From the NCBI GenBank assembly GCA_000509225.1, contig BAOK01000001.1, positions 434,001 through 498,000 on the forward strand: 64,000 nt of DNA, in the 5' to 3' direction. The notes beneath the pieces were generated by a model. It was given only the letters and a program-made list of their open reading frames with translations. It did not search any database and was not told the origin of the DNA. The position numbers were made by a program, and so were the translations under genes. The stretch comes from Parvibaculaceae bacterium Mf 1.05b.01 (GTDB lineage Bacteria > Pseudomonadota > Alphaproteobacteria > Parvibaculales > Parvibaculaceae). Shown piece by piece: positions 39,461-43,672 of the stretch. The number at the start of each line of letters is the position of its first letter. Position 1 is the first letter of the stretch.

Positions 39461-40552
<1,092 letters not shown>

Positions 40553-40580
40553 AGCGACCTCGCTTAGCCACAAAATTAAA

Positions 40581-40615
40581 GGGGCTTTCGTGAGGTTCAC
40601 GAAGGCCCCTTTTTT
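40581..40615 (+). terminator. Intrinsic terminator after ilvC
   Basis: GGGGCTTTCGTGA and TCACGAAGGCCCC pair over 13 positions (one G-U) around a 3-base loop, followed by TTTTTT. It marks the 3' end of the ilvI-ilvH-ilvC unit and separates it from ilvD. Confidence 0.92.
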
Positions 40616-40760: not shown

Positions 40761-42605
40761 ATGATCCCCTATCGCTCCCGGACGACGACCCATGGTCGCA
40801 ATATGGCAGGCGCGCGCGGCCTTTGGCGCGCGACAGGAATGAAAGACGAAGATTTCGGCAAGCCGATTATCGCGGTGGTGAACTCTTTCACGCAGTTTGT
40901 GCCGGGCCACGTACATCTAAAAGACCTTGGCCAGATGGTGGCCCGTGAAATCGAAGCCGCCGGTGGTGTCGCCAAAGAGTTCAATACGATCGCTGTTGAT
41001 GACGGGATCGCGATGGGGCATGACGGCATGCTCTATTCGCTCCCTTCGCGTGATCTGATTGCGGACTCCGTTGAATATATGGTCAACGCGCACTGCGCGG
41101 ACGCGATGGTCTGTATCTCCAATTGTGACAAGATTACGCCGGGCATGATGATCGCGACCATGCGTCTCAATATCCCAACCATCTTTGTGACGGGTGGGCC
41201 CATGGAAGCGGGCAGGGTTGTGATTGACGGCAAAGAAATTGCTGTCGACCTTGTGGATGCAATTGTCGAGGCGGTTAATCCTGACCGGACAGATGCCGAA
41301 GTTGAAGAGATTGAAAAAAATGCCTGCCCGACCTGTGGGTCGTGTTCGGGCATGTTCACGGCGAACTCCATGAACTGTTTGGCAGAGGCGCTGGGCTTGG
41401 CGCTTCCCGGCAATGGTACTGTTGTGGCTACACATGCGGACCGTAAAGAACTTTTCCTTGGTGCTGCTCGGCAGATAGTTGAGCTGACCCGTCGGTACTA
41501 TCAGGAGGAAGATGCAAGCGTTTTGCCTCGGGGTATCGCCACGTTCAAAGCCTTCCAAAATGCGATGGCGCTTGATATTGCGATGGGCGGCTCGACCAAT
41601 ACGATCCTTCACTTGCTCGCGATCGCGCGCGAAGCTGAAGTTGATTTTACACTGAAAGATATGGATGAGCTTTCGCGGCGCGTTCCCTGTCTTTCAAAAG
41701 TTGCACCCGCTGTTCCGGACGTCCACATTGAAGACGTACATCGCGCAGGTGGCATCATGTCTATCCTGGGGCAATTAGAACGCGGCGGCCTTTTGCACAG
41801 GGACGTCTCGACTGTTCACACGCCGACCATGGGTGAGGCGCTGGATCAATGGGACATCACACGCACCAATGATGAAGATGTCCGTACGCTTTATAAGGCC
41901 GCACCGGGCGGTGTACGCACAACTGTCGCCTTTAGTCAGCAAAGCCGTTTCAAAGAGTTGGACACGGATCGGGAGACCGGTGTTATTCGATCTGTTCCCA
42001 CTGCTTTCACAAAAGAAGGTGGACTGGCGGTGCTGTCCGGCAACCTGTCTGAAGAAGGTTGCATTGTGAAGACGGCCGGTGTGGACGAAAGCATCTGGAA
42101 ATTCTCTGGTCCCGCACGGGTGTGTGAGAGTCAGGATGAGGCGGTGAAACGCATCACCACCAAGGACATCAAAGCAGGTGACGTGGTCGTCATCCGCTAT
42201 GAAGGTCCCAAAGGTGGCCCAGGTATGCAGGAGATGCTCTATCCAACCTCGTACCTCAAGTCGATGGGTCTGGGAAAAGAATGCGCGCTCGTTACTGATG
42301 GTCGTTTCTCTGGAGGCACGTCCGGCCTTTCTATCGGGCATGTTTCCCCTGAAGCAGCTGAAGGGGGTCTCATCGGGCTGATCGAAGAGGGCGATCTCAT
42401 CGAGATCGACATCCCTAATCGGTCCATTAATGCGGTTCTGTCGGATGATGAGATCGCAAAACGCCGTGCAGCGATGGATGCGAAAGGCTGGAAACCAGTG
42501 GAGCCGCGCGAGCGGAAAATCTCTCCGGCATTGCGGGCTTATGCTGCGATGGTCACGAATGCATCCAAGGGTGCTGTCCGTGATGTCACACAAATTGAAC
42601 GCTAA
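40761..42605 (+). CDS. ilvD: Dihydroxy-acid dehydratase
   Basis: Fe-S dehydratase, third step of valine/isoleucine synthesis. At 614 residues it is the long [4Fe-4S]-type length. Cluster cysteines are visible in [11 protein letters not shown] and [20 protein letters not shown], and the signature [18 protein letters not shown] is present. The C-terminal block [20 protein letters not shown] carries the catalytic serine region. GAGGAGACAGAG precedes the ATG. It is separated from ilvC by a terminator and repeat copy C. Confidence 0.97.
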
Positions 42606-42655
42606 TAATTGAAAAGTGTCGTGACATCTCGATAGAAGCAGCTTAAGAGAGACCT

Positions 42656-42823
42656 ATGAACAACGAGATCACATTTGATGGCCTGACAACATGCGGTGCG
42701 TGCACCGCACCCGTTGCGCTTGCGACCATGACACCAGCTACCACGGTAGCAGGGGCGCTCGTGGTGGCGAAATTCGTCAACAAACTTGTGGTGGCCAAAA
42801 TTGTGGGAGCCACCCCGACATAG
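42656..42823 (+). CDS. Orphan 55-residue peptide gene
   Basis: Starts MNNEITFDGLTTCGACTAP and ends VVAKIVGATPT. The N-terminal part is polar and has a CGAC pair; the C-terminal part is a Val/Ala/Lys-rich hydrophobic-cationic segment (AGALVVAKFVNKLVVAKIVG) that could form an amphipathic or membrane-active helix. AAGAGAGACCT precedes the ATG and a strong terminator lies 28 bases after the stop, so it looks like a real, discrete gene. The codon choice (many G/C-ending codons) resembles its neighbours. I do not recognise it. Together with the terminator and repeat copy B it fills the stretch 42606-42967. Confidence 0.6.
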   Translation: MNNEITFDGLTTCGACTAPVALATMTPATTVAGALVVAKFVNKLVVAKIVGATPT

Positions 42824-42850
42824 TGTGATCTAGCGACAAGCCGACTTTCT

Positions 42851-42885
42851 AAAGGCCCTCCGCGAAGATCGCGGGGGGCCTTTTT
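42851..42885 (+). terminator. Strong intrinsic terminator after the 55-residue peptide
   Basis: AAAGGCCCTCCGCG pairs with CGCGGGGGGCCTTT (one G-U) over 14 bp around a short AAGAT loop, then a T-rich tail. It lies 28 bases after the stop of the small gene. Confidence 0.92.
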
Positions 42886-42895
42886 CTTTATCTGT

Positions 42896-42945
42896 CGCAT
42901 TTTCGAACCGCAGAAGTCTGAAACTTTTGTTGAAAATGCTCCGGT
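42896..42945 (+). repeat. Intergenic palindromic repeat, copy B (GCATTTTC subtype)
   Basis: GCATTTTC (42897-42904) and GAAAATGC (42932-42939) then TCCGGT. It closely matches copy A at 2705. It ends about 22 bases before the start of the racemase-like gene. Confidence 0.8.
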
Positions 42946-42967
42946 GCTGACCTGAAAGGATAGACTC

Positions 42968-43672
42968 ATGACCAGCACGTCACAGCTCAATACGCCTCGA
43001 ACACAGCGGCCGAGCCTTGTGTTCTTGCATACATCGCCTGCGCATATCGCGACCTTTAATCGGTTGCGTGATCAAATCGCACCAGGCATGCCAATCGGAC
43101 ATATTGTTCGTGAAGACCTGCTTTGCGCGGTGCAGAAGGCAGGAGCGGTCAGTATTGCGGTTGAGCTCAAGCTGGAGGAAGCCCTTAACGAAGCAGTGCG
43201 CGCAGGGGCGACACGGATTGTCTGTACCTGTTCAACCCTTGGTGGCGTCGCCGAGCGCGCAGATGTGCCGGGTGCCCACGTGATGCGTATTGATCGTCCG
43301 ATGGGTGAGCAGGCTGCCTGGATCGGCGGGCGTATTGCCGTGTGCGCGGCATTGCCGGAGACCATCGGGCCGACTTTGTCGCTGGTTGAGGAAGAGATTT
43401 CCAAGACCGGCCGGTTCACGACGGTGCAGGCCCGTGTGTTTGATGGTGTCTGGGAAGATTTTCGCGAAGGGCGTTTGCGCGATTATCACGAGGGGATCGC
43501 GGTGCGGCTTCGCGATGTCGCCATGACGGCAGACGTCGTTGTGCTCGCCCAGGCCTCCATGGCGCCTGCTGCCGAGATCTGTGGTGATATTGGTGTGCCG
43601 GTTCTTTCCAGTCCTGTCACCGGCTTTAAAGCCGCGATTGCTGAGATCGCGCCGGAAATGCTGTCCGCTTAG
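42968..43672 (+). CDS. Asp/Glu/hydantoin racemase-family protein
   Basis: A 234-residue protein of the cofactor-independent racemase superfamily. The first catalytic-cysteine block is present (RIVCTCSTLGG, C86 and C88). The second block, where active racemases usually have a cysteine in a VLACT/G-like turn, reads VVVLAQASMAPAA, so the paired cysteine is missing at that place (C205 is nearby). It may therefore be a hydrolase, isomerase or non-racemising member. The substrate is unknown. Repeat copy B sits directly upstream. Confidence 0.8.
   Translation: MTSTSQLNTPRTQRPSLVFLHTSPAHIATFNRLRDQIAPGMPIGHIVREDLLCAVQKAGAVSIAVELKLEEALNEAVRAGATRIVCTCSTLGGVAERADVPGAHVMRIDRPMGEQAAWIGGRIAVCAALPETIGPTLSLVEEEISKTGRFTTVQARVFDGVWEDFREGRLRDYHEGIAVRLRDVAMTADVVVLAQASMAPAAEICGDIGVPVLSSPVTGFKAAIAEIAPEMLSA

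Follow-up and report, generated by a model that had tools for sequence, protein, structure and literature searches.

A candidate ribosome-gated attenuator between the ilv genes and a racemase-family gene in Parvibaculaceae

A short open reading frame followed by a strong terminator hairpin lies between the branched-chain amino acid genes and a racemase-family gene of Parvibaculaceae bacterium Mf 1.05b.01. This arrangement raises the question of whether the frame is a gene, and of what the RNA beyond its stop codon does for the gene that follows. The window analyzed here is a stretch of 64,000 nucleotides of contig BAOK01000001.1, from a genome of 3.8 Mb (G000). Features are on the + strand of the window unless stated otherwise.

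The open reading frame, here called pep, has 55 codons from ATG to TAG (42656-42823) and a hydrophobic second half rich in valine, alanine and lysine. It is considered here as a candidate leader ORF. It starts 50 bases past the stop codon of ilvD (40761-42605), the gene upstream on the same strand, which is also placed by synteny; ilvC is found at 39476-40552. The names ilvC and ilvD are those we take to be correct from the translations and from established knowledge of both families. The next gene downstream is rac (42968-43672), the presumed target, which is placed by synteny and is assigned to the racemase family by a PF01177 match with an E value of 2e-06 and 28.2 bits, against a gathering score of 31. 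No solved structure was related to rac by profile at E 0.01. The neighbors of pep in the window are the ilv genes, rac, a cation-efflux gene located downstream of rac on the opposite strand, and an ArsR-type regulator. The initial annotation of this DNA described an unannotated gene of 55 residues between ilvD and a racemase-family gene, and both the frame and its position are confirmed. A search for a sigma-70-type promoter at pep found none. The motif TGACA (42622-42626) is invariant in six of six close copies and has a fixed distance to the TAAGA motif closer to pep; speculatively, it could be part of a promoter.

Conservation and coding character of pep

The distribution of pep is narrow. 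Comparisons were made among seven genomes of the window's genus (g1), a sister genus that includes Tepidicaulis marinus (g3), Parvibaculum (g5) and further genera (g2 and g4); the names for g3 and g5 were inferred from matching sequences. A profile of six copies finds pep in six of the seven g1 genomes with E values of 8.5e-21 or better and one match per genome, and the order ilvC-ilvD-pep-rac is kept in G000-G005. The six close copies are 55, 55, 50, 50, 58 and 47 codons long. Frames of 55-56 codons occupy the pep position in the seventh g1 genome (G006) and in two g3 records. They are 15-18% identical to pep, so their homology to it rests on position and composition. A pep homologue or positional counterpart is therefore present between ilvD and rac in all seven g1 genomes and the two g3 records. 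The same profile gives two weak matches only in the 33 other genomes of the family (E 0.025 and 0.087), both in longer frames, and weak peptide matches outside the genus, the best of them at E 0.008, were attributed to chance. When a viral collection was searched with the peptide, 89 stretches fit the pattern and none was confirmed. The metagenome-assembled genome SP61 has two contigs (L044 and L045) with nearly identical pep-rac regions, possibly because two strains are present in one bin.

The comparisons point to pep being a translated, fast-evolving and lineage-restricted small gene under moderate selection. The argument for translation combines in-frame gaps, substitutions that tend to be conservative, and a peptide much more hydrophobic than those from shuffled DNA. 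In a codon-blind nucleotide alignment, the gaps inside pep are 3, 3, 12, 15 and 27 bases long, and single-base gaps are confined to the pep stop codon or beyond. In a second alignment, G005 has two gaps of 20 and 6 bases in place of its one large gap, and neither length is a multiple of three. In the conservative-change test, the observed substitutions are put at random sites and amino-acid similarity is compared. The p values are 0.0002-0.022 in seven of eight g1 pairs, which share sequences, and 0.14 in the remaining one. The pair of g3 records gives p 0.049, and two near-identical copies of G006, with two differences between them, give 0.93. Judged only by the number of synonymous codons, six of the eight g1 pairs reach 0.05. 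The dN/dS comparison proposed in the initial annotation was run and gives 0.21-0.74 for pep (15 pairs), compared to 0.01-0.05 for ilvD and 0.04-0.07 for rac (10 pairs each). An open frame of the size of pep survives 11-24% of base shuffles, so its openness by itself means little; the conservation of the frame in relatives, on which the initial annotation had staked its claim of a gene, is found.

The composition of the peptide is distinctive. Its hydrophobic maximum lies above that of base-shuffled open frames in ten of ten copies, the fraction of 200 shuffled frames that reach it being 0-0.005. Over the C-terminal 30 residues, the share of valine plus alanine is 40-53% in every one of the ten copies, a level reached by at most 1.9% of windows in eight proteins encoded in the window, and valine, isoleucine and leucine together are enriched only slightly. 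The ribosome-binding site attributed to pep is supported in part. The motif TAAGA (42644-42648) is invariant in six of six close copies, but it is a weak Shine-Dalgarno-like site and falls short of the earlier description. The predicted anti-SD pairing is -4.4 kcal/mol for pep and -8.6 for ilvD, while random 17-mers have a median of -2.5 and their strongest 5% are at -7.2 kcal/mol. On the - strand opposite pep, a frame of 115 codons is open (42643-42990). One minus-strand frame is stop-free within pep in all ten copies, which is probably a by-product of codon use.

The terminator and a predicted antiterminator

The RNA beyond the pep stop codon contains an intrinsic terminator of 15 pairs (42851-42883). 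A strong hairpin was expected here from the initial annotation, but its dimensions differ from those given there, with 15 pairs rather than 14 bp and a distance of 27 rather than 28 bases from the stop codon. Covariation across 23 distinct sequences supports the terminator, with double changes at nine pairs, and none of 500 shuffles has as many. A search for the exact terminator sequence finds one copy in this genome.

Folding of the nascent RNA predicts a second structure that uses the same bases. The segment P1 (TGTGATCT, 42824-42831) starts right at the end of the stop codon and is the predicted 5' strand of an antiterminator. In the minimum-free-energy fold of the nascent RNA from this genome, P1 pairs with the terminator core AGATCGCG (42866-42873), which consists of the loop and inner 3' arm. 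Two further strands, GCG at 42833-42835 and GCC at 42840-42842, pair with CGC at 42861-42863 and GGC at 42854-42856. The predicted antiterminator is thus nested and joins the 27-base spacer to the 5' arm, the loop and the inner 3' arm of the terminator. It occupies part of the terminator 5' arm, which would explain why GCC recurs in the spacer. The match of P1 to the core in this genome includes five consecutive Watson-Crick pairs, which is within chance (26% of shuffles); when G-U pairs and energies are counted, none of 100 shuffled spacers matches it. The full terminator has a predicted stability of -28.3 kcal/mol versus -17.6 for the antiterminator. The complete RNA folds into the full terminator whether the first 12 bases are hidden or free, so that the antiterminator can win only kinetically. 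With the first 12 post-stop bases hidden, the nascent RNA of four tested elements forms the terminator tip instead. A small hairpin of P1 and the bases following it also shows covariation (3 of 500 shuffles), suggesting a competing local structure for P1. Among the distinct elements after pep, five of eight beat 95% of shuffles in the spacer gain test and the other three are at 0.06-0.07. The nascent fold of the pep element of G005 lacks the pairing between P1 and the core.

Searches for known RNA families and for further copies gave little. Near the locus, Rfam yields seven matches with E values of 0.5-3.8, all far under the gathering scores, and a search of the whole window with Rfam 15 at gathering scores finds only tmRNA and tRNA, both elsewhere. 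The post-stop sequence pattern gives counts in 41 genomes that are similar to those of a reversed control.

Similar elements are found after ilvC in the family. In the Parvibaculum records and g2, neither pep nor ilvD occupies this place, and a similar terminator separates ilvC from rac. An ilvC match is present in 35 family genomes; the ilvC ends of 30 were read, and 21 of these 30 are outside g1 and g3. In 19 of these 21 loci rac is downstream of ilvC, while the contig of G021 ends too early and G014 has another gene. The element is carried twice in g1 and g3, after ilvC and after pep. In this genome the element between ilvC and ilvD spans 40553-40612, with GACCTCGC at 40556-40563 and GTGAGGTT in the terminator at 40578-40612, and it is weak, as 47 of 100 shuffled spacers equal it. 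In the nine g1 and g3 genomes that were read, the ilvC terminator element is upstream of ilvD and may gate it.

The comparison of elements shows that P1 and the core change together and are complementary in most of the family. Matching pairs of variants are GCGATCT/AGATCGC, GCGATCA/TGATCGC, AACCTC/GAGGTT, GCGATTTC/GAAATCGC, GCAAACGC/GCGTTTGC and, in G012 where the pair was read by eye, CGCTCTTA/TAAGAGCG. Over 18 distinct cores the mean score of P1 with its core is 18.1, compared to 14.4 after partner exchange, with none of 2000 exchanges reaching it; identical cores were collapsed in this test and kinship was not, so the relatives are not independent. Shuffling the upstream side gives a score of 11.8, with 0 of 500 as high as 18.1. 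The core of G012 was misplaced by the scoring script and was counted as a poor match. A score of at least 16 is reached by 32 of 40 elements, in which P1 begins 0-3 bases past the stop codon, and by 25 of the 33 distinct ilvC or pep elements found by script. The controls, terminator-like hairpins elsewhere in these loci that also lie close to a stop codon, have a mean of 10.7. Eighteen of these 19 controls score 14 or less, and the nineteenth, the one scoring at least 16, is a missed ilvC element. Outside the family, 28 ilvC ends were taken from 78 genomes with a match; two of the 22 hairpins that are terminator-like by a loose rule score at least 16.

Folding was also compared across the family. 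In the nascent folds of 34 distinct elements, the first 12 post-stop bases pair with the core in 28, and the pairing is missing in six. In 20 of 32 distinct elements, the folding gain from the spacer is above that of 95% of its 100 shuffled versions, versus 2 of 60 control hairpins. These controls, like the 19 used for scoring, are script-called rather than verified terminators and include some in coding sequence and some on the reverse strand of an ilvC element. The elements of G008 and G012 were not called terminators and were dropped from this test, leaving the 32. For ilvC elements, 15 of 24 distinct ones pass 0.05. Those that fail are from G000 (an element common to four g1 genomes), G004, G005, G009, G014, G017, G020, G025 and G034. 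The presence of G014 on this list fits attenuation, since a gene other than rac follows ilvC there, but this is one locus on a list that also has several with rac. When alignment columns are held fixed, the support for the helix of P1 with the core is moderate: 76% of positions are paired versus 71% (3 of 500 shuffles) and covariation is at 8 of 500, while 88 of 500 shuffles equal its number of pairs with double changes. This weakness is partly due to elements that pair in a shifted register.

The location of rac suggests that the terminator is not simply an end point. Distances from the T-tract were examined in 29 loci, seven of which were dropped (four with no start, one with no T-tract and two misassigned). 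In 11 of the 22 usable loci, the rac start codon is 11-24 bases past the T-tract. A gap of this size offers a promoter hardly any space, and rac would have to be transcribed by readthrough there. The hairpin had been regarded as a discrete transcript end, and it reads better as one half of an attenuator. The gap is 24 bases in G001 and G005, and 76-78 bases in G000 (where it is 78), G002, G003 and G004 (as L042), in which a repeat of about 45 bases intervenes. This palindromic repeat of 45-47 bases, GCATTTTC...AAAATGCTC, is found in the window at 42897-42941 and 2706-2750. By exact pattern it has nine copies in the genome, all on the contig + strand. G000, G002, G003 and G004 have it in the interval from the terminator to rac, and G001, G005 and G006 lack it there.

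Attenuation and the alternatives to it

The sequence comparisons and predicted folds are consistent with pep and the post-stop RNA forming a ribosome-gated transcription attenuator for rac, in which pep would be the leader ORF. The probability of this reading is put at roughly 0.5. A ribosome at a stop codon would cover the bases just after it, and the choice between a hidden and a free antiterminator strand is the logic of classical leader attenuators. A ribosome on the pep stop codon would cover P1, allowing the terminator to form and turning rac off. If translation of pep stalls, lags or fails, P1 would be free, the antiterminator would form first, and polymerase would continue into rac. 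For most of the family, the gene that ends at the element is ilvC itself, and pep would hold the place of ilvC in the two genera where ilvD intervenes. As a guess from its Val/Ala-rich end, pep may sense the supply of valine or alanine. The initial annotation had listed a regulator among several roles for the peptide, and on comparative and thermodynamic grounds this role fits best, acting in cis on rac.

A broader proposal about the family is tentative. The elements may be attenuators that report a ribosome that has just finished a biosynthetic gene, with P1 located at the ilvC stop codon and gating rac. After ilvD broke this gene order in two genera, a new pep would have supplied the terminating ribosome. 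If this is true, pep arose as a leader ORF that took over from a full-length gene in an RNA switch. A structural gene could then act as its own leader, and small genes may originate so that a ribosome-dependent switch survives a change in gene order. Searches for leader ORFs usually target operon starts; the conserved pep sits at the end of the ilv genes. The proposal would also give a role to a family-wide element that is covered by no Rfam model, and it points to a link between a racemase-family enzyme and the genes for branched-chain amino acids. No Rfam family fits the element, but its logic is of a known kind.

The main alternative, which is doubtful, is that pep is a small membrane or membrane-associated peptide acting in trans and that the element merely ends the ilvD transcript. 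A small membrane peptide was among the roles first suggested. A 19-residue stretch with a Kyte-Doolittle mean of 1.67-2.32 is present in all ten copies, above nearly all shuffled open frames, and hydrophobic composition is retained at 15-18% identity. AlphaFold2 predicts a single helix at residues 28-50, but with a mean pLDDT of only 51.7, which is low confidence. Clustering of the hydrophobic residues beyond composition is not clear (p 0.01-0.41). Furthermore, leader peptides can also be hydrophobic, and a peptide acting in trans leaves the antiterminator unexplained. The small size and cationic-hydrophobic second half of pep could also suit a toxin, a bacteriocin or the precursor of a modified peptide, as had been proposed earlier, but this idea is hardly credible. 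Cys13 is found in two of ten copies, three copies have no cysteine, and no cysteine position is common to all. The peptide has no match in Pfam or NCBIfam. The six genomes found by profile have one match each, and no modification, immunity or peptide-export gene adjoins pep in the window, in agreement with the earlier observation on modification and export genes.

Two other explanations take the peptide itself to be unimportant. It is unlikely that pep is a relic or filler from the insertion of ilvD between ilvC and the element with rac, so that translation brings ribosomes to the element while the peptide and its length are irrelevant. The order ilvC-element-rac in other genera agrees with such an insertion, as does the presence of two elements in the two genera with pep. 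A few of 60 DNA pairs of pep with an ilvC 3' end beat at least 99% of 200 codon shuffles (G003 and G002), but most are within chance, and a protein profile gives E 32 or worse for nine of nine copies tested. A test anchored on the final 45 bases finds control gene ends that equal G000, G003, G002, G001, G005 and L061 in 4-13% of cases, L060 in 16%, G004 in 48% and G006 in 91%. Taken together, these results do not support an origin of pep in the ilvC 3' end despite the few good DNA scores, and the conserved frame and composition suggest more than filler. It is very unlikely that pep is untranslated, with a structured RNA or regulatory DNA being conserved and the frame incidental. In several close pairs, third positions differ less than they do in ilvD (9 of 50 versus 302 of 614 in one of them), which hints at an extra constraint on the RNA, but the effect vanishes with G004. 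RNAalifold pairs the pep 5' region with P1 in six close genomes, and pairing of the start region with post-stop bases is at 0.003-0.05 relative to shuffles in seven of nine genomes (with another segment in G001), but it is at 0.43 and 0.76 in G005 and G006. The weak ribosome-binding site and the G005 gap that one alignment splits also agree with an untranslated sequence, while the conservative replacements, in-frame gaps and hydrophobic composition argue against it. Pairing of the pep 5' region with P1 was considered as a third alternative structure and was rejected, being absent in two genomes and equaled in duplex energy by 24-91% of ilvD windows.

Comparison with known systems

The candidate attenuator shares features with several known systems, and among the open-access titles listed for this subject none concerns the element or pep. 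The enterobacterial ilv leaders are leader-peptide attenuators. For Corynebacterium, the ilvB-II motif is described as a leader-peptide (uORF) attenuator of an ilv operon (PMC10272879). Like such leaders, pep is a short hydrophobic ORF of variable length divisible by three, with predicted terminator and antiterminator alternatives and a stop codon near the antiterminator strand. In contrast to them, pep is located at the end of the ilv genes and not at the front, and its presumed target is rac. It has 47-58 codons, whereas ilv leaders usually have 15-17, and no run of control codons is seen beside its stop codon. Also unlike the ilv leaders, the ORF ahead of the element in most relatives is ilvC itself.

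The frd-ampC region of E. coli provides another parallel. The terminator of the upstream gene lies in the ampC leader, and the ampC promoter is within the upstream gene. As in that case, the terminator of one gene would double as the gate of the next. In contrast to frd-ampC, no promoter was found here, and two genera have a short ORF in between.

Two systems from Alphaproteobacteria are also similar. The uORFC-8-2 element is described as a candidate cysS attenuator of Rhodobacterales in which the Cys codons match the Cys-tRNA synthetase target (PMC8632094). Like pep, it is a candidate for a ribosome-mediated attenuator in Alphaproteobacteria that was proposed from comparison, but pep has no codon that can be matched to rac in this way. 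The peTrpL peptide of Sinorhizobium meliloti is reported to be a leader peptide that acts in trans (PMC7298713), which suggests that leader peptides of Alphaproteobacteria may take on a further role in trans.
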